NCBI RefSeq assembly: GCF_009905605.1
Contig: NZ_JAAAKZ010000002.1
Span: 682,001-746,000 of the forward strand
DNA length: 64,000 nt
DNA from: Runella sp. CRIBMP
Lineage (GTDB): Bacteria > Bacteroidota > Bacteroidia > Cytophagales > Spirosomataceae
Direction of reading: 5' to 3'
Part shown: positions 12,100-58,128 of the stretch, piece after piece
Layout: every line of letters starts with the position of its first letter
How positions within the stretch are numbered: position 1 is the stretch's first letter
The notes under the pieces: generated by a model
What the model was told of the DNA's origin: nothing
Databases searched by the model: none
Seen by the model: only the letters and a program-made list of their open reading frames with translations
Position numbers and translations under genes: made by a program

Positions 12100-13248
12100 T
12101 TAAGAAAACAGGCGGGTAATGCTTTCCTCGGCGTATCCACCGCTGGAAGTCATTCCTTTTCCGCCAATGCCCGTAATGATGCGAATATGATCATCAATGT
12201 CGTGTTCGTAAATTTCGTCGGAGGTTTGGCTATAAAACCCTGCCCAACTCATTTGCATTTTTTCAACGGGGAAACTTACAATGCGCTTGGCTTCATCAAT
12301 AATCAACTGATTGATGTAATCGTTGATATGATAGCCCAAATCATCCACGTTTTGCGCACCTGCGTATTCGTGTGAGTCGCCCACCACCACCGAGCCATCC
12401 AACGCCTGCTTGAACAACACGTGAATCCCCCACTTTTTAAGTTCCTCATAATGGGCGGGCGTTGTGAGGTTGGTGTACGAAGGAAGTTGCTGAAAAGACT
12501 CATAACGCCGAATGGTCAATCCCGTCAGAATATTCCCCTTCATGTCCAACTCTGGAAAAGCAATGGTCTGAAGCATCTGCAATTTGCTGACTATCAATCC
12601 ACTATGGGCAAACAGTTCGGGATAAAGCATACGAAACTCGTGTCCGTTACAGATGAGCACTTTGCTGGCTTCAAACGTCTTTTGATTCGTAAGCCGCACG
12701 GTGGCTTTTCCGTTTGAGGATTGGCACTCCACTACGGTGGCATTGTTAATGTACGTAACTCCCTCTTGTTCTGAACAATATGCCAAAAACTGCTTCATCA
12801 GTCTTGGAGAGTCAACCGTTAATTCACCTGGGAAAAACACAGCGCCTACGGGATATTCCTTTTGTAAGTAAGGATACTTCTCTAGGCAACTCTCCCGGCT
12901 CAACAGCTCGCAAGGGTAGTTGATTTTCTGATAATAATCGTACAATTCATTGGCCAATTGCCACTCATCGGCATCAGAAGCGATGTAGACCGAGCCGTTT
13001 TTGCGAACGGTTAAATCGGTTTTAGTTTGAAGTTCTTGGTACAATTCCAAGCTGCGTCGGCCGTAATGAAACCATCTTCCAGCCAACCCGGAGGGAACCG
13101 CTTGTCCAAAATTTCGGACGGTTGCACCCACCGGAAAATTATCCTTTTCTAAGAGTAATACTGATTTATTTTGACGGGCGGCATGATATGCATGGAAAGT
13201 TCCCATGATTCCGCCCCCAACCACAATTAGATCAAAATGAGTACGCAT
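12100..13248 (-). CDS. FAD-dependent oxidoreductase of the phosphonate-associated family (TIGR03364-like)
   Basis: 382-residue flavoprotein of the D-amino-acid oxidase/glycine oxidase superfamily. The dinucleotide-binding GGGIMG is at 11-16 and a conserved acidic end (LLLEKD) follows. The marker VRNFGQ at 44-49 is characteristic of the TIGR03364 group, found beside phosphonate-degradation genes. Members of this group have been reported to oxidise aminoethylphosphonate-type substrates to phosphonoacetaldehyde. Its start overlaps the end of the PhnX-like hydrolase gene by 17 bases, so the two are translated together, which fits sequential action: amine oxidation then C-P cleavage. Family is confident; the exact substrate (aminoethylphosphonate, N-methyl form, or other) is inference. 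Confidence 0.86.
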   Translation of the reverse strand: MRTHFDLIVVGGGIMGTFHAYHAARQNKSVLLLEKDNFPVGATVRNFGQAVPSGLAGRWFHYGRRSLELYQELQTKTDLTVRKNGSVYIASDADEWQLANELYDYYQKINYPCELLSRESCLEKYPYLQKEYPVGAVFFPGELTVDSPRLMKQFLAYCSEQEGVTYINNATVVECQSSNGKATVRLTNQKTFEASKVLICNGHEFRMLYPELFAHSGLIVSKLQMLQTIAFPELDMKGNILTGLTIRRYESFQQLPSYTNLTTPAHYEELKKWGIHVLFKQALDGSVVVGDSHEYAGAQNVDDLGYHINDYINQLIIDEAKRIVSFPVEKMQMSWAGFYSQTSDEIYEHDIDDHIRIITGIGGKGMTSSGGYAEESITRLFS

Positions 13249-14002
13249 CCGCTTTTTTGCCGCTTGGGCGGCCCTCTTTAATTCCTTCTATTAGATTAAT
13301 AATTTCGTCAATCGAGCCAATCAAGGCATCGTGTGGATGGCCTATGAGCTGTTCGACGGTGTGCGTACCGTTCGTTACACCTAAGTTCAACAAAACGCCT
13401 GCGGCATGACCCGATTGCAAATCAGAAGGCGTATCACCGGCATTAATCACCTGTTTAGGGTCGGAGACTCCTAAAAGGCGCATGGCTTTTTGAATCATCA
13501 ACGGCGCTGGGCGGCCATGCTCCACTTCATCACTGGCAATGGAAGCTTGAATTATGGTGGATTCATTGCCGAGGCGATTTTCATCCAAGCCTTCGAGCCA
13601 GCCCAAACGACCCAAGATAATATCGGTCACGACCCGATAAAAGCCCGTCGTTAAGGCAATTTTAATGTTATTTTGTTTAAGGTAGCTAAACAGCTTCAGA
13701 CAGCCGTCGGTTGGAAAAACGGGCTGAGTCTGGTAGTGTGCTTCCAGTACATCTTTAAATATTGCGTACGACTTATCCACCTGGATTTCTACATCTGGAT
13801 GAGACTCCCCGAGCTGGGCTCTCCAAAACAACTGAAATACATACCGCTTCGATAATCCCTGTGCTGCCAAAATGGCTTCGTCAGAAGCTTCGAGTCCCGA
13901 CATACGCGCTGCTTTTGCAAAGCACGCCTCCACCTCATGCTGGTCGGCTACGGTGGTTCCAGCCATGTCCAAAACGACCAATTTTATCTGTTGTTGCTCC
14001 AT
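13232..14002 (-). CDS. PhnX-like HAD hydrolase (phosphonatase-like)
   Basis: 256-residue HAD-superfamily enzyme close to phosphonoacetaldehyde hydrolase (PhnX). Motif I is DMAGTT (12-17), the phosphonatase form of the HAD nucleophile loop, with Asp12 as nucleophile. The cap region has GLSK at 49-52; this aligns by position with the GLLK of Bacillus PhnX, whose Lys53 forms the Schiff base with the aldehyde. Thr118/Thr119 fit motif II, the basic HGRP segment (162-165) the next loop, and GDTPSD (189-194) is the acidic Mg-binding motif. First gene of a two-gene operon with the FAD oxidoreductase. Expected reaction: phosphonoacetaldehyde to acetaldehyde plus phosphate, in the cytoplasm. Not certain, since TIGR03351 'PhnX-like' enzymes can differ in substrate. 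Confidence 0.87.
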   Translation of the reverse strand: MEQQQIKLVVLDMAGTTVADQHEVEACFAKAARMSGLEASDEAILAAQGLSKRYVFQLFWRAQLGESHPDVEIQVDKSYAIFKDVLEAHYQTQPVFPTDGCLKLFSYLKQNNIKIALTTGFYRVVTDIILGRLGWLEGLDENRLGNESTIIQASIASDEVEHGRPAPLMIQKAMRLLGVSDPKQVINAGDTPSDLQSGHAAGVLLNLGVTNGTHTVEQLIGHPHDALIGSIDEIINLIEGIKEGRPSGKKADAYSF

Positions 14003-14338
14003 TTATTTATATGCATTAGAAAAATACAAAAGTAATACTTCGTAAACAAAGTTAATAAATTTCGAATTAAAGTTTAGTTTAAGTATACAATTTATTTAAT
14101 ATTAATTCCATAATAATTTGGTAATAATTAGATAACATATACGAATTGAACCGCAAATTTCACTCAATATGTATAAATAATACTGGAATATGGAACTTCA
14201 ACCGAATGTTATGATTAAAAAAATATATTAATAATTACTTTACTATTAGTTAACTATTTATTAATTTCACTAAACTTACTTTGCAACGGGTTTAGTAAGT
14301 CCTACACTCCTTCATTTTCCACTTAACAAATTAACATT
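14003..14338. other. Divergent regulatory gap before SusC
   Basis: 336 bp, very AT-rich, with no coding sequence. It must contain the promoters of both the leftward PhnX-like/FAD operon and the rightward SusCD cluster. For the rightward side, TTACTTTG at 14276-14283 resembles the -7 box, with TSS about 50 bp before the SusC ATG. For the leftward side, a TACTTTTG box (minus strand, 14034-14027) is present without a matching -33. No operator palindrome or Pho-box-like direct repeat stood out. Confidence 0.4.
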
Positions 14339-17300
14339 ATGCGGTACTTTTTACCCCAAAATCTAGGGAAATCCTTTTGGGTGTCATTATTTATACTGAC
14401 ACTCAGTGTAGCCTCCAGTCTACTTGCACAAGAAATAACGGTGCAGGGTAGAATCACAGACGCCGAAAACAACGCACCTCTCCCCGGGGTGAGTGTGGTT
14501 GTAAAAGGCACAAATCGCGGAACAAACACTGACGGCGAAGGTAGATATCGCCTTAGTGTAGCCCCCAATTCTACGTTAGTATTCTCCTTTGTAGGCTACA
14601 ATGCCCAAGAAATATCGGTGGGCAATCGTAGCACGCTTGACCTCAAAATGGCACAAGACCTTAAACAACTACAAGAAGTAGTAGTGACGGCATTAGGGAT
14701 TCAAAAAGATAAGAAGACATTGGCTTTTGCAACGCAAAGCGTAAAAGGCTCAGACCTTATCAAAGCCCGCGAGCCCAACCCTATTAACTCATTGATAGGT
14801 AAAGTAGCAGGCTTAAACGTGGGAGCAAGCGCCGAACTTTTGCGTGCGCCACAGGTGTCGTTGCGTGGTGGTCGCCCACTGTATGTAGTAGATGGTATTC
14901 CAATCAACTCCGATACTTGGAACATCAGCCCCGACGATATAGAGTCAATGGACGTATTAAAAGGACCTTCGGGAACGGCTCTGTACGGTTTTCGGGCTCA
15001 GAATGGGGTGATTATGATTACAACTAAGAAAGGGTCGAAAGATAAAAGAGGCTTTGCGGTTGATGTTAACTCATCTACGATGTTTGACAATGGATTTATT
15101 TCCATGCCTAGAGTACAAGACCAATACGGTCCAGGTGACCACGGCAAATATGCGTTTGTGGACGGTCGTGGGGGTGGTGTGAACGATGGAGACTACGACA
15201 TTTGGGGACCGCCATTGGATGGCCGTTTGCTTACTCAGTACGATAGCCCTATTGACCCTGCCACGGGTAAGCGAATTCCTACTCCTTGGTTGCCGCGTGG
15301 GGCCAACAATTTACAGCGTTTTGTTCGTACGGGGATTTTGTCTAATAACAACGTATCGGTTTCTGCTAGTAACGACAAAGCCGACCTTCGGGTGTCGTTG
15401 TCGCACCAATACCAACGGGGTATCATTCCTAATACGCAACTGAACATTACTAACCTCAATACCTCGTTTGGATATAGTTTTTCCAAAAAATTGCGTTTTG
15501 AAAGTACCATCAACTACAGCCGTCAATATACGCCTAATATCCCTGACGTAGACTATGGCCCTAACTCACTCATTTACAACTCAATCATTTGGGGTGGGGC
15601 TGACTGGAACGTTGATGATATGAAACAATTGTGGCAGCCTGGCAAAGAAGGTGTCCAGCAAATATATGCTGAGTACCAACGCTACAACAATCCTTGGTTT
15701 GTAGTTAAAGAATGGCTGCGTGGGCATTACAAAAATGACATCTACGCTTATGCACTTGGTAAATACCAAATTACGGATTACCTAAATGCCCAAATTCGTA
15801 CGCAAGTAACCACTTATGACATTCTTCGTACCGAGAAAATGCCTTACTCAGCAACTTCTTATGGACGTGAAGAAGCCCGGGGTGACTACCGCGAAGACCG
15901 TCGTAGCCTTTGGGAAAACAATACTGACGCCTTGGTTAATTTTGACAAAGAAGTCGCTAAAAACATCACCGTGAGAGCCTCAGTCGGTGCAAGTATGCGT
16001 TTGTTCCGCTACAACTCCAACTTTGCTTCTACCGACTATCTCAACGTACCAGGCGTATATAGTTTCTCCAATTCACGCAACCCCGTACAAGCTTACAACT
16101 TTGCGGCTTACATGAAAGTATTGAGTGGCTATTATTCCGCCGACGTTTCTTTGAGCAAATATGCTAACCTTTCAGTAACGGGACGTTGGGACAAAACCTC
16201 TACGTTACCGTCGGGTCGTAACGTAGGTTTTTATCCTTCTGTGGGTCTAACAACGGTCATTTCGGACTACGTAAAGTTGCCAGATGCGATTACATTCCTC
16301 AAACTTCGGGCTTCGTTTGCCCGGGTGAAAGAGGCCTTTACGCAAGCTACGATTGGGGTTCCGCCAAATACGCCAGTCCCTTACGGTGCCAACTATACTT
16401 CATCTTACGACGGTCCAAGTTATGGTACAACCGTTGCTTACAGCATATCGCGTCCTTACAACAACGAAGCCGCGGCTTATTATTCAACACGCCTTGTTGA
16501 CCCCAACATCCAGCCTTCAACACGTACCAACTATGAGGGAGGATTGGAAATGAAGTTTATGAACAACCGTTTGGGGTTAGATGTTACTTACTTCAACTAC
16601 TTAGATGGCCCCCAAATTTTTGGATTAACTCTACCAGAATCAACGGGTTATGGGGCACTCACCACCAACGGTATCAAAACCCAACGTAAAGGATTAGAGA
16701 TTGCGGTTAGTGGTAATGTTCTCAAAAGCAGCACTGGCCTTAACTGGGACATCTTGGCCAACTGGTCCACTTGGCAAGAAACCCTCAAGGAGATTTACGG
16801 TTCACAAACCCGCCTAAATCAGTTTTATAAAATCGGCGATCGTATGGATGCTTATTATGGACGCGCCTTTGTTCGTACCCAAGATGGCCAAATCGTCAAT
16901 GATGCCAGCGGGCGTCCAATTTACAATCCCGTCAATCAATTCTTAGGCTACACTAACCCTGACTGGACGTTTGGTTTCCAAAACAAATTTAGCTACAAGA
17001 ACTTTAACTTTAGCTTCCAATTTGACGGACGTGTAGGTGGGGTTATCGAGAATTACATCCAAAAACAAACATTCCGCGGTGGTCGCCACCAAGCTACGGT
17101 CGAGGGTGCCATGGGCATTGCTCGTTTGGCCGACACGCAAGGACAGAAAACTTGGGTAGGAGAAGGAGTAGTTTTGACGGGTGGTACGATTAAATACGAT
17201 CCCGATGGTTTAGTAACAAACTATGGTGAATTGAATTTTACCCCGATGTCTTCTGCGAATGCTACGTTTTTGCAAGATTGGATTAGCCGCTACTACAACT

Positions 17301-17554
17301 CAAATGAGGGCAACATGATAAACCGTACGTTTGTAAAATTACGTGAATTACAGGTAGGTTATTCACTCCCAGCGGGTCTGCTAGGTAAGAATATTAAGCA
17401 GGCTACTATTTCACTGGTTGGACGTAACTTATTGTATTTTGCCCATTCCAAAGATTTGGATGTAGAGCAATTTGTTAACTACACAGACCGTGGGTCGTCG
17501 TTACAGACACCTACCATGCGTCGTTACGGTATCAATATCAATTTCACTTTCTAA
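14339..17554 (+). CDS. SusC/RagA-family TonB-linked outer-membrane transporter
   Basis: 1071-residue outer-membrane importer. Signal peptide to about residue 31 (ending SSLLAQE), then a CarboxypepD-regulatory-like domain (about 33-110: VQGRITDAENNAPLPGVSV). The TonB box/plug follows (QEVVVTALG, then VSLRGGRPLYVVDGIPI and DVLKGPSGTALYGFRAQ), and then a long barrel ending in an aromatic NFTF. This is the full SusC architecture; 1071 residues is normal. It forms a pair with the SusD gene 60 bp downstream. SusC proteins import oligomers captured by the SusD lid. Unlike classic polysaccharide loci there is no glycoside hydrolase near; the neighbours are phosphonate- and phosphoester-type enzymes, suggesting a phosphorus-containing substrate. 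Confidence 0.95.
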   Translation: MRYFLPQNLGKSFWVSLFILTLSVASSLLAQEITVQGRITDAENNAPLPGVSVVVKGTNRGTNTDGEGRYRLSVAPNSTLVFSFVGYNAQEISVGNRSTLDLKMAQDLKQLQEVVVTALGIQKDKKTLAFATQSVKGSDLIKAREPNPINSLIGKVAGLNVGASAELLRAPQVSLRGGRPLYVVDGIPINSDTWNISPDDIESMDVLKGPSGTALYGFRAQNGVIMITTKKGSKDKRGFAVDVNSSTMFDNGFISMPRVQDQYGPGDHGKYAFVDGRGGGVNDGDYDIWGPPLDGRLLTQYDSPIDPATGKRIPTPWLPRGANNLQRFVRTGILSNNNVSVSASNDKADLRVSLSHQYQRGIIPNTQLNITNLNTSFGYSFSKKLRFESTINYSRQYTPNIPDVDYGPNSLIYNSIIWGGADWNVDDMKQLWQPGKEGVQQIYAEYQRYNNPWFVVKEWLRGHYKNDIYAYALGKYQITDYLNAQIRTQVTTYDILRTEKMPYSATSYGREEARGDYREDRRSLWENNTDALVNFDKEVAKNITVRASVGASMRLFRYNSNFASTDYLNVPGVYSFSNSRNPVQAYNFAAYMKVLSGYYSADVSLSKYANLSVTGRWDKTSTLPSGRNVGFYPSVGLTTVISDYVKLPDAITFLKLRASFARVKEAFTQATIGVPPNTPVPYGANYTSSYDGPSYGTTVAYSISRPYNNEAAAYYSTRLVDPNIQPSTRTNYEGGLEMKFMNNRLGLDVTYFNYLDGPQIFGLTLPESTGYGALTTNGIKTQRKGLEIAVSGNVLKSSTGLNWDILANWSTWQETLKEIYGSQTRLNQFYKIGDRMDAYYGRAFVRTQDGQIVNDASGRPIYNPVNQFLGYTNPDWTFGFQNKFSYKNFNFSFQFDGRVGGVIENYIQKQTFRGGRHQATVEGAMGIARLADTQGQKTWVGEGVVLTGGTIKYDPDGLVTNYGELNFTPMSSANATFLQDWISRYYNSNEGNMINRTFVKLRELQVGYSLPAGLLGKNIKQATISLVGRNLLYFAHSKDLDVEQFVNYTDRGSSLQTPTMRRYGININFTF

Positions 17555-17613
17555 GAGATTGTTGTTGGCAAACTGTAAATGAAAACCAATCCTTCGTACA
17601 AAACTTTAAGACG

Positions 17614-19179
17614 ATGAAAATCAATAAAATATATTTCATTTTTGCCATTGCCGCTCTGTCCATGAGTAGCTGCCAAACCTTCCAAGAGTTGGAAACCAAC
17701 CCCAACGTTCCTGCAAGCTCACCTGCAAACTTGGTATTCAATGGTATCCTTAATAGCATGACCGAACGTCCTTGGGGCAAAGACACCCGTTGGAATCAGT
17801 TTTATACCATCAATTATAACTATTACGGCAACAACGAATACGACTGGACTACGTCGGGCACTTATTTTGACGCGCTTAAAAACGTGGTAAAAATGGAGGA
17901 AGAAGCCAAAAAATCGACGGGAAAAGACTTAAATCCGTACGCGGCACTGGGTAAATTTTTTAAGGCTTACTTCTTCGTGTGGATGACGCAACGCCTCGGC
18001 GACCTCCCCATGAATGAAGCACTGAAAGGCACCGAAAATACCAGCCCTAAATACAATACGCAAAAGGAAATCTACGCGCAAGCGCTCAAATGGCTCGATG
18101 AATCAAACGATGACTTGACCAAATTGATTGCCGCAGGAGATATTTCATTGCAAGGCGATATTTACTTGAGCAACAATCTTCGGGCTTGGCAAAAAGTGGT
18201 AAATACCTTCAAACTACGCGTGCTGGTTTCGTTGAGCAAGAAAGAAAGCGACGCAGAGCTAAACATCAAAGGTAAATTTGCCGAAGTAATCAACAATCCT
18301 GCTAAATACCCAATCATGACGGGAATGGCCGACAATATGGCCTACAAGTACAATGCTACGTACAACAAATACCCCATCAACCCCGACAATTTCGGGTTTG
18401 ATGCCACGCGCCAGCAAATGTCAACGACCAACATAGACCTCCTTAAAGCGACCCAAGACCCGCGTCTTTTCTACATTGCTGAGCCCGCAGAAGCCCAGTT
18501 GAAAAAAGGCCTCGCCCAAACTGACTTCGCCGCATTTGTGGGTGCGAATCCCGCCGAAAGCTTGGATGATATGTCAACAAAAGCACTGGCTGGACAGTAT
18601 TCGTACATCAACCGTAACCGTTATTACAAAAACTATTCTCCCGAAGCAACCATCCAAATCGGCTACATCGAAATGTGTTTCAACATTGCCGAAGCCGCCA
18701 ACCGGGGCTGGGTTACGGCAAACGCCGAAGATTGGTACACAAAGGGAATTCAGGCTTCTCAAGGATTTTTTGAGATCAAGAACGGGGAAAATAGTGTCGT
18801 ATTGGAAACCCGCAACGGAGCCAATGCTTCGTTGGCATCTTATACCATCAAATTTAATTTCGCCGACTTTTACGCCCAACCTTCGGTAAAATACGCTGGC
18901 AACAACGCAAAAGGATTGGAACAAATCAACAATCAAAAATACCTTGGCTTTTTTATGAACTCAGGGATGGAGGCCTTCTACAACTGGCGTCGTACTGGTT
19001 TCCCAGCCAATTTTGCCAAGGGCGGGCCAGGAACCGGCAATTCTGGCGTCATTCCGCGCCGTTGGTTATATCCAAACTCAGAGCGTATCTACAACGAAGC
19101 CAACTATAAAACTGCGGTACAAGCTCAATTCGGCAAAGCTACTGAGAGCATCAATGATGAGCTTTGGCTTTTGAAATAA
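17614..19179 (+). CDS. SusD/RagB-family surface lipoprotein
   Basis: 521-residue substrate-capturing lipoprotein that caps the SusC barrel. Signal peptide with lipobox ending in Cys20 (ALSMSSC). The TPR-rich SusD fold is recognised from QELETNPN near the start, the AYFFVWMTQRLGDLP segment (about 116-130), which is the classic SusD 'xxWGDLP' site, and the conserved C-terminal end (NSGMEAFYNWRRTGFP and the RRWLYPNSE segment) of the SusD-like_2 group. Located 60 bp after SusC and followed by a terminator hairpin (19205-19245), so SusCD may be made in excess over the downstream phosphoesterase. Confidence 0.94.
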   Translation: MKINKIYFIFAIAALSMSSCQTFQELETNPNVPASSPANLVFNGILNSMTERPWGKDTRWNQFYTINYNYYGNNEYDWTTSGTYFDALKNVVKMEEEAKKSTGKDLNPYAALGKFFKAYFFVWMTQRLGDLPMNEALKGTENTSPKYNTQKEIYAQALKWLDESNDDLTKLIAAGDISLQGDIYLSNNLRAWQKVVNTFKLRVLVSLSKKESDAELNIKGKFAEVINNPAKYPIMTGMADNMAYKYNATYNKYPINPDNFGFDATRQQMSTTNIDLLKATQDPRLFYIAEPAEAQLKKGLAQTDFAAFVGANPAESLDDMSTKALAGQYSYINRNRYYKNYSPEATIQIGYIEMCFNIAEAANRGWVTANAEDWYTKGIQASQGFFEIKNGENSVVLETRNGANASLASYTIKFNFADFYAQPSVKYAGNNAKGLEQINNQKYLGFFMNSGMEAFYNWRRTGFPANFAKGGPGTGNSGVIPRRWLYPNSERIYNEANYKTAVQAQFGKATESINDELWLLK

Positions 19180-19204
19180 TTTTTTTAATAGGTTAAGAAT
19201 GCAC

Positions 19205-19245
19205 AATAAAGTGGGAGATTGTTTATCTCCTGCTTTATTTTTTTT
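19205..19245 (+). terminator. Terminator/attenuator after SusD
   Basis: AATAAAG-GGGAGAT pairs with ATCTCC-GCTTTATT around a short loop, followed by a run of T. It lies 26 bp after the SusD stop and just upstream of the phosphoesterase start (19268), so read-through rather than a new promoter probably feeds the next gene. Confidence 0.75.
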
Positions 19246-19267
19246 GTTAATAAACTCCTGACCATAT

Positions 19268-21982
19268 ATGCGTTTCTTTTTTTCCTTTTCCCTTATACTT
19301 TCCCCCCTTTTGCTAACGGCTCAACTCCGTACAATCAAAACCCTTCAAGTACCGAGCCGAGCTGAGTATTGCAAAATTGACACCACAGGGGGCTACTCAG
19401 TACTGCCCAGTGGGCGGCGGGTTACGCCCGTAGGCATTACCCTCCGCATCACCAACGACCCTTTTGGACTGGCTGTCAGTCCTGATGGGCGGCGGGTCGT
19501 GGCACTACACAGCGGCGCGGTTTCACTCATTGATGCCGAACACCCACGCCACGCCCTTCGCATTCCCGATTATGCCAAAACGTTGGCCGACCCTTTTAAA
19601 GGTGCCACGTTTTTGGGCGCTGCCTTTGCGCCCGATTCCAGAATTGTGTATTTGAGCGGCGGAGACAAGGGGAATGTCGTCATTTTTGACACCGAAAAAA
19701 AGGAGAAAATTGACGATATTTCACTCAACCAACCCGTTAACGGTCAGCAATTTGAAGAAAGTTTTACATCTGACTTAGTAATAAATTCCGCTAAAAATGA
19801 GCTATTGGTACTTGACCGGGCGCATTTCAGAATGGTGCGGATTGATTTGGCCACCAAAAAAATCACGGCTTCCATTCCCGTAGGGCGGCAGCCGTTTGGA
19901 CTTTCGTTAAGTCCCGACAAAAAATACGCATTTGTGGCCAACGTCGGCTTATATGAATATCCACTTGTGCCGGGCGTAACGCCCAAAAACAAAGACACCA
20001 TGATGCTGAAGTTTCCGCCTTACGGCACCTTCACCAAAGAATCTATCGAGGGCCTAGAAGTGGAAGGGCGGAAAATCCCAGGCTTAGGCAGCCCACTCGT
20101 ACCCGAAGCCATGAGCGTTTGGATGGTAAACTTAGCCACCAACAAAGTCACGGGAAAATTTAAAACTGGACATCAGATCGGAGAAATGATTGAGGAAGCC
20201 GAAATAGTGGGCGGAGCAAGCCCCAATTCCGTTGCCGTCGGAAAACGCTTTGCCTACGTTTCCAACGCCACCAATGATAATATTTCAATTATTGACTGCC
20301 AAACGCGCAAAATCGCGGGACATATCGCGCTGAAAGTACACCCAAGCATTGACAAGTACCGAGGATTGATGCCCTTTGGGATAGCCCTTACCCAAGATGA
20401 AAAAACGCTATACGTGGCCCTTTTGGGCTTCAATGCCGTAGCGGTGGTTGATTTGACCACCCGTCGCGTAAAGGGATTGATTCCTACGGGTTGGGGACCA
20501 ACCAAAGTAAAACTATCGCCCGATGAGAAAAACCTTTATGTGGTCTCTGCCCGGGGTTTGGGCGCAGGTCAAAACGGTGGTAGCGACTTTGTAAAACCAG
20601 ACCGGGGAACCTACATCGGCGACATTCAACTCGGGACATTCCAAAAAGTTACGCTCCCAGCACCCACCGAATTGAAAAAATGGACACAACAAGCCATCGA
20701 CAATACCTTTGAGACCGTATCAGTCACCGACGACGGCAAAAACCCCCTCCCTCCTCTGCCCGGCTCACGGACAAGTCCCATCAAATACATTGTGTACATC
20801 ACCAAAGAGAACCGCACGTACGATGAAGTCTTGGGGCAGCTTTCCAAAGGTGACCCAACGCTCGCTCGCTACGGAAAAAATGTGACAGTAACGACAAAGA
20901 CGGACACTTTGCGTCAGGTAGATGTGATGCCCAATCACCTGCGTATTGCCCAACAATTTGCGTATTCTGATAATTTTTACTGCGATTCGGATGCATCCAT
21001 TCACGGCCACCATTGGATGATGGGCGTCATCCCCAACGAATGGGTCGAAGCCAATTCCAATCACTCTTCGAGCTTCAATGCATTCTCTAAAGCACCCGGA
21101 CGGCGCTTTCCAAAAGCAACGGGCGGAATTGACCCCGAAGACTACAACGAAACTGGCGGACTATGGGAAGCCTTAGAACGCAAAAAAATCCCATTTTATA
21201 ATTTTGGGGAAGGAAATGAGTTTGCCGCCGTTGCGGAAGAATGGAACCATTTTGAATACGGCGCACGACAGCCCGTAGTGTTTCCTCTGCAAAAAGCTGT
21301 TTTTGAACATACCTCGCGCAACTACGCGGGTTTTGACATGAACATTCCAGATTGGCTCCGAATGGACCAGTTTGAGAAAGAGTTTACCGAAAAATGGCTG
21401 AGTCCGCAAAAGGGCAAAAAAGTAGATTTGCCCCGACTGATTGTCCTCCAACTTCCCAATGACCACGGCGCGGGCGTCCGTCCAGAAGCAGGCTTCCCGT
21501 ACCCCCATTCTTTTATGGCCGATAATGACATTTCATTGGGCCGAATTTTACAATTCCTTTCGCATACGCCGTATTGGAAAAATATGCTCGTTGTTATCAC
21601 CGAAGACGACCCGCAGGGAGGTGTTGATCACATCGACGCGCACCGCTCGGTATTGATGCTGGCGGGCCCCTACGTAAAGCGTGGGCACGTATCGCATACC
21701 CACGCCAATTTTGGGTCCATTTTGAAAGTAGTTTATAATACACTGGGCGTGCCCTACGTCAACCAATACGACGCCACGGCCTCCTTACTTCAGGATTTTT
21801 TTACGGACAAACCCGATTTTACGCCGTATCAAATGCTGATTCCTGACAAACGCATTTATGATGTAGACAAAGCGATGGAGATTTACAAAAAAACGTACGA
21901 CTGGAAAACCGCCAAGCCTGGCCCTAAAATGGATGACCCCAATGAGCAGCGCAAGGAGCATTATCGGCAGCAGAATAACTAA
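19268..21982 (+). CDS. Secreted beta-propeller/phosphoesterase fusion
   Basis: 904 residues with a cleavable signal peptide (LILSPLLLTAQ). Residues about 45-455 are YVTN/lactonase-type seven-bladed propeller repeats (for example LAVSPDGRRVVAL, LSLSPDKKYAFVANVG, VAVVDLTTRRVKGLIPTGWG). Residues about 505-880 are a phosphoesterase of the alkaline-phosphatase superfamily: ENRTYDEVLG (E514-N515) matches the ENRS/T-FD metal motif of phospholipase C/AcpA enzymes; NDHGAG at about 732 and EDDPQGGVDHIDAH (779-792) supply further Asp/His ligands. It should release phosphate or a phospho-alcohol in the periplasm or on the surface. Directly downstream of SusD, with a PhnZ-like gene after it. Substrate unknown; a phospholipid, phosphonolipid or phosphodiester would suit the neighbours. 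Confidence 0.9.
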   Translation: MRFFFSFSLILSPLLLTAQLRTIKTLQVPSRAEYCKIDTTGGYSVLPSGRRVTPVGITLRITNDPFGLAVSPDGRRVVALHSGAVSLIDAEHPRHALRIPDYAKTLADPFKGATFLGAAFAPDSRIVYLSGGDKGNVVIFDTEKKEKIDDISLNQPVNGQQFEESFTSDLVINSAKNELLVLDRAHFRMVRIDLATKKITASIPVGRQPFGLSLSPDKKYAFVANVGLYEYPLVPGVTPKNKDTMMLKFPPYGTFTKESIEGLEVEGRKIPGLGSPLVPEAMSVWMVNLATNKVTGKFKTGHQIGEMIEEAEIVGGASPNSVAVGKRFAYVSNATNDNISIIDCQTRKIAGHIALKVHPSIDKYRGLMPFGIALTQDEKTLYVALLGFNAVAVVDLTTRRVKGLIPTGWGPTKVKLSPDEKNLYVVSARGLGAGQNGGSDFVKPDRGTYIGDIQLGTFQKVTLPAPTELKKWTQQAIDNTFETVSVTDDGKNPLPPLPGSRTSPIKYIVYITKENRTYDEVLGQLSKGDPTLARYGKNVTVTTKTDTLRQVDVMPNHLRIAQQFAYSDNFYCDSDASIHGHHWMMGVIPNEWVEANSNHSSSFNAFSKAPGRRFPKATGGIDPEDYNETGGLWEALERKKIPFYNFGEGNEFAAVAEEWNHFEYGARQPVVFPLQKAVFEHTSRNYAGFDMNIPDWLRMDQFEKEFTEKWLSPQKGKKVDLPRLIVLQLPNDHGAGVRPEAGFPYPHSFMADNDISLGRILQFLSHTPYWKNMLVVITEDDPQGGVDHIDAHRSVLMLAGPYVKRGHVSHTHANFGSILKVVYNTLGVPYVNQYDATASLLQDFFTDKPDFTPYQMLIPDKRIYDVDKAMEIYKKTYDWKTAKPGPKMDDPNEQRKEHYRQQNN

Positions 21983-21986
21983 GGCC

Positions 21987-22012
21987 GCAGTGGGTGAAAT
22001 AACACCCACTGC
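21987..22012 (+). terminator. Hairpin after the phosphoesterase gene
   Basis: GCAGTGGGTG (21987-21996) pairs perfectly with CACCCACTGC (22003-22012) over a six-base loop. The T-rich tail is weak (CTCTCAATTTT), so it may only slow transcription before the PhnZ-like gene 52 bp downstream. Confidence 0.55.
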
Positions 22013-22064
22013 CTCTCAATTTTGACATAAATAACTACTTTTACTTCTCTAAATAAACACCAAT

Positions 22065-22616
22065 ATGCCTTCATCCATCACCGAAATTCGTCAATTATTT
22101 GAGTCACAAGGCGATGAACAATACTATGGCGAAGACGTAAGTCAACTCGAACACGCCGCACAGGGGGCTGATTTGGCCCGCAAAGGCGGCTTTGACAAAG
22201 AAGTACAGGCAGCGGCTTTTTTGCACGACATTGGCCATTTGATGCCTGCCGAAAAAGAAGAAGAACTCATGGAAATGTATGGCCGCAAAGACCATGAAGA
22301 AGTGGCCGCCGATTGGCTGCGCGACCAGGGCTTTCCCGAAAAAGTATGCATTCTTGTCGCCAATCACGTCAATGCCAAGCGTTATTTGACCTACAAAAAC
22401 CCCAAATACTTCGCGGGGTTGTCCGACGCGAGCCGCAAGACGCTCGAATTTCAGGGTGGCCCCATGCAAGCCGAAGAAGCCAAAGCCTTTGAACAAAACC
22501 CTTATTTTGAGCTTATTATCCAAATGCGCCGCTGGGATGAGGCCGCCAAAGTAACGGGATTGCCCAAACCTGATTTAGAAAAATACTTAAAATTGTGCGA
22601 GGAGGTGTTGGGGTGA
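22065..22616 (+). CDS. PhnZ-like HD-domain mixed-valent diiron oxygenase
   Basis: 183-residue HD-domain protein of the phosphonate-operon HDIG group (TIGR03276-like), which includes PhnZ. PhnZ cleaves the C-P bond of 1-hydroxy-2-aminoethylphosphonate with O2, giving glycine and phosphate. Metal ligands are all present in the right order: H30, H54-D55 (LHDIGH), H77 (KDHEE), H101 (NHVNAK) and D158 (RRWDEAAK). Tyr20 and Glu23 in the YYGEDVSQLEH segment match the Tyr/Glu lid pair that marks true oxygenases versus phosphohydrolases. Lys105 and QGGPM (130-134) also fit the PhnZ substrate pocket. No PhnY hydroxylase is in the window, so the substrate source must be another gene. It follows the SusCD-phosphoesterase genes on the same strand, 82 bp after the last stop. 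Confidence 0.9.
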   Translation: MPSSITEIRQLFESQGDEQYYGEDVSQLEHAAQGADLARKGGFDKEVQAAAFLHDIGHLMPAEKEEELMEMYGRKDHEEVAADWLRDQGFPEKVCILVANHVNAKRYLTYKNPKYFAGLSDASRKTLEFQGGPMQAEEAKAFEQNPYFELIIQMRRWDEAAKVTGLPKPDLEKYLKLCEEVLG

Positions 22617-22660: not shown

Positions 22661-25600
22661 TCATCGTATTACCACCAGTTTATGGGTAATCCTTTTGCCT
22701 AAACCTGCGTCTATTATCACTAAATACATTCCCGTAACTATGTTTTCTAGGCCTATTTCCACTTGGGATGCGTTATTCGACAAGAGATACTGTCCGATTA
22801 TTTGGCCTATTGAATTGTATATTAACAACCGAGAAGCTGGTTCGAACGGAACTTTCGAAATGACCGTAAAATGGGTTGAAGCAGGATTGGGATAGAGGTA
22901 GGATTGATTGTTAACAAACGAAGGCGCTATCGCCAAAAGGGGCGAACGCAACGCCCACAGTTGTTTTCCCATGCTCCCTGCCTCCGCAATACATAAAAGA
23001 CGCTTACCGTCAATGACAAAATAACGAGAAGGAAAAGAGCTCTCGACTGAGGGTTGTAAGTCGTCGAGTACGCGGCTGTTTTCGGGAGTCCCGTCGGTGG
23101 TCCAGGGCTCTACGCCTCCCTGCATATCAAAGCTACTGACAATTAAATTGTTATTAAAAACGCCCCAACCTTCTTCGCCGTTATTTTCAACATCTCGCAC
23201 GTAGGCCAATTGGGTTGCTAATGAATCGGCGGTATAAAGCATGATGGGAGGATATCCAGTTTTGGAAGCCATCAATGCCTTACGCCCGTTAAAGGTTAAC
23301 GGGCGCTGGTTTAAAACAAAATCGCCCAGTTTACGTACTTCTGTCTGACGAATCAACCATGTCTGAGGGATTCTGCCATCCCATGACAAATAAAGGTCTC
23401 GACCATCCTGAAAAAATGAAAACACCCGAGTGTATCGATCATCTTGCGGCAGCAAGAGACTCGTTTCTAAGGTTTTAAGGTTTATTCTTTTACAATTTTG
23501 CCCTACAATGTAAAGCTCTCCTTCGTGTACAATCACCTTATCAGAATATGCCAATGTCGGTAATTCAGTAACCGAGGCCGCACGTGGGTTAAGCGCAAAA
23601 AAACGGCCATTGTCCAACTGAAAGGCGGCCATCTCATCTACCATAAATATCTCCACTATCTGCCGGGCACCACCCGCCATCACCTTCCTCAAAGTGAGTG
23701 AATTTTCATTTACAATGGCGGCATCTAATATCCGCGTTGGAGTGGCCGCGGATGTATAGGTAACGAGAACATCCGTTTTGAGCGCCTGTACACTAAACCC
23801 ACCGAACAACGAGCGGCTTACCTCTTTGGTCCCATCTAAAGTCCCATCGGTAGCCATTAGGGCAATGGTAGGTTCTCCGATACTGAAATCAAAACGAATA
23901 AAGCGATTGTAAAATACTTTGTTTGAGGTGGCCGCCCACGTTTGCTGAGGTATTACCCCTCCCCCTTCCAGCACCGTTAATTTTCCCTCAAAATCAACAC
24001 AATACAACGTTGAGCTCACCTTAATCAGCACTTTGTTAGATAATTGCCTGAAATCAATCCCCCAATTGTCATTGCTTCCAACCTTAAAATCAATGACATT
24101 ATTGCTGTTGCTATCATAAATAAACGAAACGTGAGGATGAAGAAACATTCGACGTTTTTCGCGAATAATCACTTTCATAGGTTCCATTCGCGGCCCCATA
24201 AAACGTTTTAATTCCCTCGTTCCCACGGGCGTTCCGTCACTTACCCAAATGGCACTTTCATTTGAACCAACCTGAGTTTGTAGGTATAAAAACGTGCCAT
24301 CTTGATACGTTGAAAGCACTTTTGATACTGAAAGACTCGGTATATCTTTTACTTTGGTGGTTCCGCCGATGGTTCCATCGGTTATCCACAGGGACGTTGA
24401 TGCAGTGGCGGTGGCTTCATCACGCGTCAGGAAAAAAACTTTTTTACCTACCCGTATTATTTCAAAATTATCATTCCCGACGGTTTTGATGTTTTTGACA
24501 ATGTAAGACTTGAGCGTCGCAATATCGGTTTTGTACAACTCTGTATCGCCACTCACATCCAAACGTCCTGAATGAACGATCGCATCTGGCAGTAGTTCGT
24601 AATAGGACAGCGCGACGGATACCTCTGCCAATTTCTCATCCTTTAAATTATACCATTTCGGAACATCAACGGCGGTGCTTCCGCCCACTAAAAGAGAATT
24701 CCCCACCTTTTTGAGCGTTGTAATAACATCAGGAATCACTTTCCAAGCATCGGCCACCTCAGTAGTTCCTGCTTTTTCAAAGTCGCGGATGACCAGCGCT
24801 CCCTTCTTTGAAATACCGTAGAATTTGGCATCAATCCACAAAAAGTTGCTTACTAAAGCTGGCAGAGCGGTTTTATCAATTGTTCGAAAGTTATACCCAT
24901 CGGTACTTTCTAACAACCGCACCGAAGGGCTATCGAAGTTGATGTGTTCTACAATCTGAATCTTATCCTCCTTTACCCGCATTTCTATCACGCCGCTAAG
25001 GCTAAGAGAAGTATTAGGATTGGCAAATCCCCTGGCGTAGACCACTTCGGCAGTAGCAGGGTTATTATTTTTAATCCGAACTATATGCCCATCATTGAAT
25101 GCATTGCAGTAATAATACAAATAATCACGCCAAACAAACATTTTCGGTTCTGAGGAAAAACTGCCAAAATACCCCACCCGTATCGTCCCTGTGGTCGTAC
25201 CGTCCGTTTGGAACACCGCCGAGCGTCCTCTGTTATTGAAGTACATTTTGCCATTATGAGGAAAAAAGCCAGCCCCACTTTTTCCCAATCCTAGGTCGGC
25301 GAGTTGGGTACTGCCTGAGGTGGAAGGATTAAGAACCCATATCTTTTGGGCCTGATCGGCAATGTAAAGTTGACCATTAAGCGGCATCAATTCTGTGATG
25401 GCAACACCCCACTGCGCCAGACGCGCGGTGCCGTTTGGCGTTCCGTCACTTTGCCACACAGCACATTGGCCATCGGCTTGTAAAGACGTAAAATAAAATT
25501 TCCCATCCGCCACCACCGTTGGATTGATGGTGAGGTCGTTGGCATAGTAAAGACCCGAACCAGCGCCAGGCACCACGTCTTTTAAGAGCTGAGTGCCCGT

Positions 25601-25801
25601 TTCGGTTCCGTCGGTCACCCACCATTCATCTCCCTGCTGATTTGTATTGGCAATAAAAAATATCTTATTTTCGAGCCGCACGAATTTGCGCGGATTGGAA
25701 GATGCATTGGCCAGATGTTTTACCGCAGTTAATTGATTTTGAGCGTATAACGCCCCCCCAACCAACCATAAAAAAGAGAGCAAAAAAAAGCGGTATTTCA
25801 T
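22661..25801 (-). CDS. T9SS-secreted ELWxxDGT-repeat protein (copy A)
   Basis: 1046-residue secreted protein. A signal peptide (FLLSFLWLVGGALYAQ) is followed by about 950 residues of beta-propeller-like sequence with at least seven ELWxxDGT-type repeats (EWWVTDGTETGT, AVWQSDGTPNGT, AVFQTDGTTTGT, SLWITDGTIGGT, AIWVSDGTPVGT, ALMATDGTLDGT, EPWTTDGTPENS). The last 80 residues (from LYPNPAST) form a type IX secretion sorting domain (type A), so it should be exported through T9SS and left on the surface or released. Its paralogue begins 3 bp away (upstream in transcription) and the two read as a tandem duplication. Function unknown; adhesion or a surface matrix role is speculative. Confidence 0.9.
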   Translation of the reverse strand: MKYRFFLLSFLWLVGGALYAQNQLTAVKHLANASSNPRKFVRLENKIFFIANTNQQGDEWWVTDGTETGTQLLKDVVPGAGSGLYYANDLTINPTVVADGKFYFTSLQADGQCAVWQSDGTPNGTARLAQWGVAITELMPLNGQLYIADQAQKIWVLNPSTSGSTQLADLGLGKSGAGFFPHNGKMYFNNRGRSAVFQTDGTTTGTIRVGYFGSFSSEPKMFVWRDYLYYYCNAFNDGHIVRIKNNNPATAEVVYARGFANPNTSLSLSGVIEMRVKEDKIQIVEHINFDSPSVRLLESTDGYNFRTIDKTALPALVSNFLWIDAKFYGISKKGALVIRDFEKAGTTEVADAWKVIPDVITTLKKVGNSLLVGGSTAVDVPKWYNLKDEKLAEVSVALSYYELLPDAIVHSGRLDVSGDTELYKTDIATLKSYIVKNIKTVGNDNFEIIRVGKKVFFLTRDEATATASTSLWITDGTIGGTTKVKDIPSLSVSKVLSTYQDGTFLYLQTQVGSNESAIWVSDGTPVGTRELKRFMGPRMEPMKVIIREKRRMFLHPHVSFIYDSNSNNVIDFKVGSNDNWGIDFRQLSNKVLIKVSSTLYCVDFEGKLTVLEGGGVIPQQTWAATSNKVFYNRFIRFDFSIGEPTIALMATDGTLDGTKEVSRSLFGGFSVQALKTDVLVTYTSAATPTRILDAAIVNENSLTLRKVMAGGARQIVEIFMVDEMAAFQLDNGRFFALNPRAASVTELPTLAYSDKVIVHEGELYIVGQNCKRINLKTLETSLLLPQDDRYTRVFSFFQDGRDLYLSWDGRIPQTWLIRQTEVRKLGDFVLNQRPLTFNGRKALMASKTGYPPIMLYTADSLATQLAYVRDVENNGEEGWGVFNNNLIVSSFDMQGGVEPWTTDGTPENSRVLDDLQPSVESSFPSRYFVIDGKRLLCIAEAGSMGKQLWALRSPLLAIAPSFVNNQSYLYPNPASTHFTVISKVPFEPASRLLIYNSIGQIIGQYLLSNNASQVEIGLENIVTGMYLVIIDAGLGKRITHKLVVIR

Positions 25802-25804
25802 GGC

Positions 25805-28800
25805 TCAATACTTATTTATTTTTTTAGAAGCCCACCGCTTCCCATCCGTCACCCAAACAATGTACATTCCTGTGGGCAGGTGCGAAACATCAATTCCATC
25901 CACTTGCTCAGTTGAAGGCAATGACTTTTCCATAATCAACCGTCCATTTATATCAAAGATTTTAAGGTACATAGATGCTCTTTTAGCGTCTGTGATACGA
26001 ATTGATACAATTTTACTAACCGGATTCGGAAATACATTTAATGAAAATATCGGTTCGGGCGTTTTTATCGCCAGCACTGGAGGGGTTACATTCCAAAGTT
26101 GCCGACCTTGGTCACCACTGAATGCCGAACACACTACTATATTTCCCATCACCCTCAAGTCTTTAGGGTTTGAACTAAGTGCCCCCGTTCTTAAATCCGC
26201 CCATTGTCTGGTTCTTTCGGGGGTTCCTTCGGTGAGCCAAAGTTCATTGCCTCCAGCTTCATTTTCGGCGGCAAAAATTAACATTCCAGCAAAAGCCTGT
26301 TCGGGAACCACCTGATTGGTGGGTAATGATTTCAGCAATGTCGTCTGCGTAGGAGATTCTACCAGAAATATTCCATTTTGTCGGCCGCTGCTGTTTTGTG
26401 TATAACCCTGAAATCCTCTCTTTTCAATCAAGTCCGTGAATCGGGTTGTAACAAAGAAACTTCCTAATTGTTGGGCTTTAAGACTGTCTATTTCCCAAGT
26501 TTCAGGGGTTGGGTCGGCAAATGAAACGTACATTTTTGGGGCCTGCAAAAACGTGCGCCCATTCTGATAAAATTTTGCTGGCAATAACCTACTGAGTGAA
26601 TCTTTGGCTGGAAGAACTTTCCAGACATTGCTTCCCACAACGTACAACGCTGACCCACTGGTAACAAACTTAGGGTTTTGCGAGTCGGCAGCGTCGCCTT
26701 TCAGGAAACGAATGGTTTTGGCAGTAACATCCAAGAGCGCCACATTGAGGCGATTGGGGGCCGTCACAACAGCTAGGGTGTAGGTATTCCCCGTTTTTTG
26801 CACGCCCCGTACCGTTGTAAAATCAAACGGCCCCATTTCTTGCGCACGTTGGCCGTTAGCATCCACAAAAGTCAGAAAGCTGTTGATTTTTCCACCAGAA
26901 GTTACTTCTGTACGGTGGATAAAAATTCCATCGGAGACTTTAAACATAGCCGTTGCCGAAGGAATTTCCATTAACTCACGCGGGGCTTCAGACGCAGAGG
27001 CTCCAGTCATGACGCCCAGCTTTCCCGACGTTTTCAGCCGTAAGTAGAAAAAACGCGCCCCCATCCCCAAGGGTGCCACCATTGAGTCAACCGTGAAAAG
27101 GGTACGATTTTCAAGCGTGGTAAGCGACAGATTTGCATCTACCACGGTCACTGACTTTTCATCAAACAACAACACTTTATTGTCGAGCGCCAACGTCTTT
27201 CTATTTCCCGATACAGTATTGATGGTAGAAGAACGTATAAGTCTCAATCCACTAAAGTCCACTTTATAATACGACAGAGAACCAAACCAAAGTAATAGTT
27301 GATTATCAACCGAATAAACGTAAGGTCGATCTTGCGCATTGGTAATACTTCCCAGCAAATTTGTACCAGCGGCGGTTCCATCGGTCACCCATATATAACG
27401 ATTATTGCTTTGGTCGACGTACGAAAACAACGCCCGCTGCCCATCCGAATAGATCAATCCTGAAGCGGCGGCGTTGAGAAGAAGGGTCGGTGAGTTATTT
27501 AGAACTTTTATGGTCTGACCAGCAGTCAGGCCATCGGTTTTGTTGAGCGTAATTCCTGGCCCAGCATCATCGCCAATATAGTATAATTGCGTACCCAACA
27601 TAAACTGCGGGATTTCATTATCTTCTACCTGTTGTAGATTCCCCCTCACTTTAAAATTCAGTCCGTTCAAATCTGCCCCATATAAGTTAACATTCCCTTT
27701 GGCCGTAGTCCCTCCTGAAAGAACCAACGAATTGTTAAATTCGAGGATTTGAGACACGAAAACGTTACGCGGAGTAATTTTTCGGGTGGCCCCATCAAAC
27801 AGGTAAAGTTGACCACGAAAATCAGCTGACTTGACAAAATAAGCCACTGAATTATTGCTCAACTTTTTGGCACGGGCAACATCTAGTCCCGATAAAGTCC
27901 AGTTAATGTAGGTCTTTGTGGTGTCTCCCGAGGTCAAATCCATCGCGGTGAGGAATGTTTGCGACGCGTAGTAAAGGGTATTTCCCGATACCTCTACACC
28001 CGAAATAGAGCCTAAAGGAGCCGTTTTTGTCAATACTCTGCGAAACGTACGACCGTCAGTGGTATTCTGAACGATAAACTGATTTAAAACGGAGCTACTG
28101 GGATTGGGAAACTCGATAAGTTGAAACTCATTGTCAATGATTCGAGAAGTCATTCCGCGAAAACGTTCTTGTAACGACACAGGAAAAAGGTTCACGGGTG
28201 GAATCAAGACTTCAGTAGTTGCGGTGGTTCCACGGGTCTTGATTAGCACTTTATCATTTTGGCTATTGTATACGTAGACATCCCCTTTATACACGTTATA
28301 GAGTGGCTGCCCAAGGCGAATACGTTGTGCAAAAAGGCGCTGATTGCCAGTAGTAGTTCCATCAGCACGCCATAGCTCATATTCTCCAAGCTCGTTGTAG
28401 GTGAAGTATAATTGATAGTCTAATACGGGGGGGACATTGGTATCTAAGTAATAATCAGGCAGTACAAAAGTGATTGACCCACCAGGATTGCTTACTCTCC
28501 TTTTGGTTTTAGTCGTAATATCAAGGTAATACAGCGCGAAGTTTTCAATTACGTAAAACTTATCCTTTTGCGGTGTGGGCCTGAATTGCTCTATGATGCC
28601 CTCGTAAGTATATATCTTTAGAGTACCGTCGGTAGTACCGTCCGTTTGCCAAAGCTCTGACTGGTTAAGGGCATTCTTTGTCAGAAAATATAAAATTCCA
28701 TTGGCAACCACTATACTCCGCTCCACTTCAAGCAAAGAAGTAGTAAGATTTCTAACCAACGTGGTTGCCACGCCCGGAGCAATATCCTTCAGTAATTTTG

Positions 28801-48634: not shown

Positions 48635-48636
48635 TG

Positions 48637-48711
48637 TGGGAGTTGAGGGATTCGAACCCCCGACCCTCTGCTTGTAAGGCAGATGCTCTGAACCAGCTGA
48701 GCTAAACTCCC
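48637..48711 (-). tRNA. tRNA-Val (TAC)
   Basis: 75-nt cloverleaf: acceptor GGGAGTT/AACTCCC, D arm GCTC...GAGC, anticodon arm TCTGC-CTTACAA-GCAGA with anticodon TAC (reads GTA), T arm GGGGGTTCGAATCCC. CCA is not encoded. Identical in sequence to the copy at 48750-48824, upstream in transcription by 38 bp. Confidence 0.95.
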
Positions 48712-48749
48712 TTCGTGTAATTGAAGGATTACTAATATTATTTTTTGTG

Positions 48750-48824
48750 TGGGAGTTGAGGGATTCGAACCCCCGACCCTCTGCTTGTAAGGCAGATGCT
48801 CTGAACCAGCTGAGCTAAACTCCC
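48750..48824 (-). tRNA. tRNA-Val (TAC), first copy of the pair
   Basis: Same 75-nt tRNA as the neighbour: acceptor GGGAGTT/AACTCCC and anticodon TAC. Transcribed first, from the likely promoter at 48866-48897. CCA not encoded. Confidence 0.95.
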
Positions 48825-58048: not shown

Positions 58049-58128
58049 GCTATAGTTTAAATTTGTGAGCAAGTAAATAAATATTGGGTAAAATTAATAC
58101 ATTTCACCCTTTTTATTGCCTTTTTCTA

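Follow-up and report, generated by a model that had tools for sequence, protein, structure and literature searches.

A candidate phosphonate-scavenging locus around a SusC/SusD importer in Runella sp. CRIBMP and other Bacteroidota

Why should a SusC/SusD pair lie among genes for phosphonate-type enzymes? The established role of Sus systems is mainly glycan import (PMC8115612). In Runella sp. CRIBMP (assembly GCF_009905605.1) we analysed a stretch of 64,000 nucleotides, called here the window (contig NZ_JAAAKZ010000002.1, positions 682,001 to 746,000 of the forward strand), in which a SusC/SusD pair, a secreted phosphoesterase and a PhnZ-like HD-domain oxygenase are encoded opposite a flavin adenine dinucleotide (FAD)-dependent oxidoreductase and a PhnX-like HAD hydrolase. 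We consider it probable that this is a phosphonate-scavenging locus, with import by SusC/SusD, removal of an ester partner, a permease of the DUF5690 family, and breakdown by the FAD, PhnX-like and HD enzymes. Gene content, linkage and catalytic residues are observed and the fold of DUF5690 is modelled; from these we infer the substrates, the order of the steps, the direction of transport and the place of the phosphoesterase. The gene set itself occurs in several families of Bacteroidota.

Recurrence of the gene set and of its SusC

A TIGR03276 search for the HD protein covered 59 relatives plus 395 genomes of the phylum. A match was obtained in 32 of the relatives and in 32 of the 395 genomes (17 strong and 15 weak, five of the 17 being already among the relatives). 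HD matches of at most 23 bits (15 genomes, plus a further place in G444) were taken for other HD proteins and left out; two fragment rows of G052 in the relatives' set were also removed. This left HD neighbourhoods of 43 genomes besides the window's, two small loci included; for 26 of these genomes the analysis covered one stretch only, no longer than 20 kb and in most cases reaching from 13 kb upstream to 7 kb downstream of the HD gene, so that farther genes are missed, and some contigs measure just 3 to 15 kb. All counts come from our own six-frame calls of open reading frames (ORFs) of at least 90 amino acids, and neighbouring genes were named by phmmer against a few queries, not from curated annotation. 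Among the 43 neighbourhoods, SusD was found in 33, the FAD gene in 28, the PhnX-like gene in 25, DUF5690 in 22, any of five kinds of phosphoesterase in 34 and an XRE-cupin regulator in 11; SusC was counted in 35, some low-scoring or cut genes among them. The FAD match of G182 reaches 43 bits and is a different FAD oxidoreductase, with 61 bits to TIGR03364.

As controls, 20 stretches of 20 kb were taken, the sources being the window's own genome and 13 of the 43. A single SusC/SusD pair was seen in them, and genes of the FAD, PhnX-like, HD and DUF5690 kinds were absent; two stretches carry a generic aldehyde dehydrogenase that scores 162-165 bits with the phosphonoacetaldehyde dehydrogenase query. 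It can be seen that SusC/SusD and the phosphonate-type families co-occur in Bacteroidota genomes far above these control stretches, a check that the first-pass annotation of the window had proposed. In addition, enzymes of two C-P-cleaving kinds, which it had noticed around the pair in the window, recur together with a SusC/SusD pair in the neighbourhoods of other genomes.

The window's SusC (TIGR04056, 492 bits, cut-off 368) and SusD (PF12771, cut-off 27, Table 1) are clear members of their families. A whole-genome search for the SusC in the 59 genomes, with at most 13 candidates scored per genome, gave 29 places of at least 1063 bits in 28 genomes (the window's included), the next score being 551 bits. 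An orthologue was present in 26 of the 32 HD-bearing genomes versus 2 of the 27 without HD (Fisher p 5.8e-9), in 16/20 versus 2/26 when one genome per genus was taken (p 5.7e-7) and in 15/17 versus 2/8 within the window's family (p 0.0036); these p values overstate the evidence because the genomes are related. Of the 29 places, 24 adjoin HD, FAD or PhnX-like genes: 20 lie in HD neighbourhoods (window included), and four stand beside FAD and PhnX-like genes (G002, G007, G018, G032). A measure of SusC density per genome was dropped, as the search scored at most about 17 places per genome.

A quick tree, calculated without bootstrap, contained 101 SusCs from the fetched neighbourhoods and from 19 chosen other places. 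A neighbourhood SusC was labelled as belonging to a phosphonate locus when phmmer gave it more than 400 bits against the window's SusC (more than 300 for named loci), and the rest as other. With labels that are in this way partly circular, 61 of the 73 locus SusCs, the window's included, form one clade with SH-aLRT 100. The clade gathers SusCs of phosphonate or DUF5690 loci from the window's family, Cyclobacteriaceae, Sphingobacteriaceae and Chitinophagaceae, and suggests that a dedicated SusC clade belongs to phosphonate-type loci. The circularity makes the whole-genome search the fairer test.

The cytoplasmic enzymes and the secreted phosphoesterase

The FAD enzyme passes the curated cut-off of TIGR03364 (Table 1), and the HD protein that of TIGR03276 (218.8 bits against 214.6). 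The latter matches PhnZ of PDB entry 4mlm with E 1.3e-41, and its Y20, E23, H30, H54, D55, H77, H101 and D158 align with PhnZ. Among 72 rows, the ligands and E23 are kept in 70 to 72 and Y20 in 71, and the YxxE lid of C-P oxygenases in 71; L081 (genome G032) departs at several of the 14 counted positions and L232 at one ligand. Diiron ligands and the YxxE lid are described for PhnZ and TmpB (PMC8177086). The PhnX-like protein lies below the TIGR03351 cut-off, so it is not filed as a member and is taken as a relative only; a same-genus relative in L076 passes with 226.4 bits. Its D12 and K52 align with D12 and K53 of PhnX. Over 70 rows, D12, T16 and T119 are each kept in 69 and K52, R164, D190 and D194 in all 70. 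The whole catalytic set tested, namely the motif-1 Asp and Thr, the cap Lys, the motif-2 Ser/Thr, the motif-3 Lys/Arg and the two motif-4 Asp, is present. His56 of PhnX is not conserved, His being present in 2 of the 70 rows. According to PMC12632274, which lists the PhnX-type catalytic residues, the inactive PA2803 group does not conserve residues of these kinds.

These alignments and scores bear out what the first-pass annotation had read from the window, namely the positions and families of six genes, D12 and K52 of the HAD hydrolase, the metal ligands and the Tyr20/Glu23 lid pair of the HD protein, and the TIGR03364-like label of the oxidoreductase. Its statement that a secreted phosphoesterase stands beside SusC/SusD agrees with a PF04185 match and with a signal peptide recognised by eye, and a Pfam scan of eight window proteins likewise gave no glycoside hydrolase domain.

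The window's phosphoesterase combines PF04185 (30.6 bits, cut-off 23, residues 505-607) with YVTN-type repeats and occupies the slot between SusD and the HD gene. Within the genus, the slot also holds a PF04185 protein in G003, G007, G010 and G012, a PF01663 protein in G006, G008, G009 and G011, and a PF01663 protein plus two further genes in G001. Elsewhere in the window's family it is filled by a different PF01663 protein (G015, G023, G027, G029) or by a metallophosphoesterase-like protein (G020, G030); in G016 and G028 SusD adjoins the HD gene and no slot gene was seen. That one slot takes different proteins implies a constant need, and points to the freeing of phosphonate, or of phosphate, from an ester as its job; which of the two is freed we infer rather than observe. 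A fold search with a structure model of the window's protein was set aside, the mean predicted local distance difference test score (pLDDT) being 61 and a large part of the catalytic domain scoring under 50.

The FAD/PhnX-like/HD trio is the sole C-P-cleaving set found in the window's genome among the families searched, PhnA not having been searched there. In that genome no protein exceeded the PhnW cut-off, and there was no match to PhnJ of C-P lyase or to PepM of phosphonate synthesis. As to a partner of the PhnY/TmpA type, five PhyH proteins of the genome all stayed below the PhnY-type cut-off (best NF052437, 43.5 against 500), and no PhnY-type family occurs among the recurrent neighbourhood clusters. 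A divergent PhnY partner, or one from another family, is possible; this bears on the pathway and not on the family of the HD enzyme. In G182 (L102, with flank L103), HD, SusC/SusD and DUF5690 genes occur in one neighbourhood together with PhnW (485 bits, cut-off 400.8), phosphonoacetaldehyde dehydrogenase (665 bits, cut-off 635.65) and PhnA (496 bits, cut-off 407.55). In a Ferruginibacter metagenome-assembled genome (L201), two DUF5690 genes are accompanied by PhnA-, dehydrogenase- and PhnW-like genes, with no SusC/SusD in the stretch.

The DUF5690 membrane protein and the layout of the window

DUF5690 (PF18943), whose function is unassigned in Pfam, is the recurrent membrane protein of the loci; its name was not found in the literature searched, most subscription journals being outside the scope. 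It is present in 30 of the 32 relatives with HD and in 7 of the 27 without. A set of 20 further DUF5690 neighbourhoods, 18 of them from genomes without a strong HD match, gave 14 with FAD, PhnX-like or PhnW genes. The named DUF5690 loci are the best 80 of 581 candidates, and 35 of them are named Mucilaginibacter or Pedobacter; one strain that carries the locus is Mucilaginibacter lappiensis (L160). One comparison genome of the window's class encodes a DUF5690 identical to that of Pedobacter sp. Leaf170 (L125 and L229). A phosphonate gene was found in 53 of these 80, by weak matches only in L211 (68 bits) and L230 (51 bits); SusD is present in 38 and an XRE-cupin (helix-turn-helix-cupin) regulator in 42. 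HD genes occur in 28 of the 80, and there the FAD gene accompanies them in 28/28 and SusD in 25/28. The sole DUF5690 found in the window's genome (L111, G000:C1:458438-459571, on another contig) groups with support 100 with its closest relatives, the family copies L075 and L079, which are locus-linked, unlike L111.

An AlphaFold2 model of DUF5690 (35 rows, pLDDT 91.6) has the fold of the major facilitator superfamily (MFS). Its seven best matches in PDB are all SLC37A4/G6PT structures (TM about 0.6, E from 8.5e-9), with other MFS families close behind, 336 matches at E of at most 0.001, and E. coli GlpT at rank 44. As compared with the organophosphate:phosphate antiporters (GlpT, UhpT, SLC37A4), the likeness lies in this modelled fold, in SLC37A4 as best match, and in an invariant helix-1 RK pair that falls on R45-K46 of GlpT in a weak profile alignment. 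In contrast, the profile match is not significant, a sequence search against PDB gave no match, and other MFS families are close. DUF5690 may therefore be described as MFS by modelled fold, as organophosphate-antiporter-like by best match, and as to its substrate by association; it is likely the inner-membrane partner of the phosphonate locus. One copy, G014:C28:316636-317772, carries one in-frame TAG. DUF5690 genes are also seen in Rhodanobacteraceae (Dyella and Rhodanobacter: L213, L214, L216, L219, L224, L230, L234), with no strong phosphonate neighbours.

The features of the locus are collected in Table 1. The two gene groups are divergent. On the minus strand the PhnX-like gene precedes the FAD gene with an overlap of 17 bases; on the plus strand SusC, SusD, the phosphoesterase gene and the HD gene follow one another with gaps of 59, 88 and 82 bases. 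When the intergenic regions of eight same-genus loci were aligned, some blocks were common; no regulator site was identified in this alignment, and no Pho-box or promoter scan was made.

Table 1. Features of the candidate phosphonate locus (window positions) and what each identification is based on
Feature	Position	Strand	Basis
FAD-dependent oxidoreductase, TIGR03364 (HpnW/PbfD-like)	12100..13248	-	TIGR03364 350 bits, cut-off 285.1
PhnX-like HAD hydrolase, probable phosphonatase	13232..14002	-	TIGR03351 166.8 bits (cut-off 218.9); aligned PhnX residues
Intergenic region separating the divergent gene groups	14003..14338		ORF coordinates; aligned with 7 same-genus regions
SusC-type TonB-dependent importer, phosphonate-locus clade	14339..17554	+	TIGR04056; orthologue search; tree
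SusD-like surface lipoprotein	17614..19179	+	PF12771 191.7 bits; lipobox-like SSC by eye
Secreted beta-propeller plus phosphoesterase (PF04185)	19268..21982	+	PF04185, YVTN-type repeats; signal peptide by eye
PhnZ-like HD-domain diiron oxygenase	22065..22616	+	TIGR03276; PDB PhnZ 4mlm; metal ligands and YxxE lid

Next to the locus, 22661-25801 and 25805-29008 encode two adjoining secreted proteins of about 1050 amino acids each, alike by eye, with repeats such as 'ELWRADGT' and 'LWVSDGT'; among the fetched same-genus stretches, G010 and G012 alone have both next to the locus. Farther away, two tRNA-Val genes with the same anticodon lie 37 bases apart (48636-48824). Positions 58001-62000 have a GC content of 0.30-0.31 (0.37-0.51 in the other 2-kb steps), include a 1170-amino-acid ORF at 58084-61596, and are possibly acquired DNA.

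Proposed pathway, alternatives and known systems

The pathway that we propose would run as follows. SusC/SusD would bind a phosphonate or a small phosphonate ester and import it across the outer membrane, driven by TonB, and the secreted phosphoesterase would strip the ester partner, a lipid or a sugar, on the cell surface or within the periplasm. Passage of the freed aminophosphonate through the inner membrane would fall to the DUF5690 permease, encoded elsewhere in the genome, which plausibly works by exchange against phosphate. Once in the cytoplasm, aminoethylphosphonate (AEP) or N-methyl-AEP would be oxidised to phosphonoacetaldehyde by the TIGR03364 FAD enzyme; the PhnX-like enzyme would hydrolyse this product to acetaldehyde and phosphate, and the PhnZ-like enzyme would convert 1-hydroxy-2-aminoethylphosphonate to glycine and phosphate. 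Because no PhnY partner was recognised, we propose that 1-hydroxy-2-aminoethylphosphonate may be taken up ready-made. In its main line this proposal agrees with the inference of the first-pass annotation, to which neither the DUF5690 gene, placed elsewhere in the genome, nor the XRE-cupin regulator of many other loci was visible.

A number of observations weigh against such a pathway. The PhnX-like protein falls short of TIGR03351 (Table 1) and also of the cut-off of TIGR01422 PhnX (87 bits against 220). SusD is absent from 10 of the 43 HD neighbourhoods and the FAD gene from 15, or 16 without the weak G182 match (some contigs being short). For the SusC orthologues in G017:C26 and G033 the stretch retrieved shows no phosphonate gene, and those in G022, G025 and G052 have none up to the contig end, which limits the stretch on one side in G022 and G025 and on both sides in G052; 12 locus SusCs lie outside the main clade, in an adjacent group that also contains three others. 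As for DUF5690, 27 of the 80 named loci have no phosphonate gene, among them members of a 16-row clade that includes Pedobacter and Rufibacter and six of the seven Dyella/Rhodanobacter loci. Three Chitinophaga loci (L189, L190, L193), also among the 27, have XRE-cupin, same-clade SusC/SusD and DUF5690 genes and no recognised phosphonate enzyme; perhaps they use a C-P enzyme of a new kind, or a relocated one. The window genome's own DUF5690 gene stands away from the locus with no phosphonate neighbours, and hhalign of the DUF5690 profile with GlpT/UhpT/UhpC gave a weak match (E 0.023, probability 2.1%).

The locus might serve organic phosphorus in general, the SusC/SusD pair and the phosphoesterase taking ordinary phosphate esters and the trio acting on phosphate esters or other small molecules. 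Phosphomono- and diesterases do accompany PusCD of Flavobacterium (PMC8115612), and the phosphoesterase, at 34 of 43 neighbourhoods, is as constant as SusC/SusD; but the cap lysine, which in PhnX serves C-P hydrolysis, is invariant in the PhnX-like rows (70/70), the oxygenase lid is lost from a single HD row, and variants of the locus with PhnW or PhnA exist, and we therefore regard a general phosphorus locus as unlikely. It seems improbable, too, that a SusC/SusD-phosphoesterase-HD operon and a divergent FAD/PhnX-like operon do separate jobs and are neighbours by history. The two groups recur together in other families, in varied order and in some cases in one direction (L108, L197, L200), and across genera the SusC orthologue goes with the HD gene, whereas the divergence seen in the window, and the fetched HD-SusC/SusD stretches of G015, G023, G027, G028 and G029, which include no FAD or PhnX-like gene, are what two modules would predict. 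Use of phosphonolipids or phosphonoglycans for carbon and nitrogen, with phosphate as a by-product, appears very improbable, as no lipase or glycoside hydrolase is found among the clusters present in at least four genomes; the helix-turn-helix-cupin regulator of 42 of the 80 DUF5690 loci could sense such a substrate and is the point in its favour.

Parts of a phosphonate-scavenging locus of this kind have precedents. The FAD, PhnX and HD trio is known from Achromobacter (HpnW-PhnX-PhnHD operons, PMC11203657), where a TIGR03364 FAD protein, PhnX and a TIGR03276 HD protein are likewise clustered without PhnW, and where the roles of the FAD and HD proteins are termed a conundrum. Unlike the window's locus, those operons are described with PhnSTU transport and LysR regulation, and the excerpted text mentions no SusC/SusD, secreted phosphoesterase or DUF5690. 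PbfD1 of A. baumannii, annotated as TIGR03364, was assayed on N-methyl-AEP and converts it, and less well AEP, to phosphonoacetaldehyde for PhnX, the oxidation of N-methyl-AEP being demonstrated for PbfC and PbfD enzymes (PMC10590968); the window differs in that its PhnX-like protein is a divergent relative, and the main text of that paper does not contain the terms 'Bacteroid' or 'TonB'. With PhnY/PhnZ and TmpA/TmpB (PMC8177086) the HD protein shares ligands and YxxE lid, whereas none of the five PhyH proteins reaches a PhnY-type cut-off.

Flavobacterium has SusC/SusD pairs (PusCD) that are induced by phosphate depletion, the 'phosphate utilisation systems' (PUS; PMC8115612). We interpret the locus as a phosphonate form of these, with a dedicated SusC clade added. 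In both, phosphoesterases replace glycan enzymes beside the pair, and the window's SusC/SusD is co-localised with phosphorus rather than glycan enzymes; induction by phosphate depletion is a feature of PUS, and the phosphonate locus is described here from its genes. The extracts of PMC8115612 name neither the FAD/PhnX-like/HD trio nor DUF5690 in PUS, and the six PusD forms of PUS are polyphyletic, whereas most SusCs of phosphonate loci fall in one clade. One sentence of that paper places phosphonate-degrading enzymes, unnamed there, beside PusCD, so that the link between SusC/SusD and phosphonates is not wholly new. The first-pass annotation had held that a locus of this kind is not known as an established type, which that one sentence partly contradicts. 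Among the papers listed by a search of titles and abstract beginnings (SusC/SusD, TonB or Bacteroidota with phosphonate; most subscription journals outside its scope), no other describes it.

To our knowledge, the phosphonate transporters known so far are inner-membrane systems. AepXVW, AepP and AepSTU are such systems, and AepP is reported in one Bacteroidetes (PMC8316502). We are evenly divided on whether Bacteroidota have an envelope route of their own, made of a dedicated SusC/SusD clade, an interchangeable secreted phosphonate-ester hydrolase and a DUF5690 antiporter-like permease, which would play the role that ATP-binding cassette (ABC) or AepP transporters play elsewhere. If the proposed reading is true, it would assign Bacteroidota a definite position in the phosphorus redox cycle and DUF5690 a function, and phosphonate use would become readable from genomes without PhnW or C-P lyase. 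The locus also bears on the role of TIGR03276 proteins where no PhnY partner is seen.

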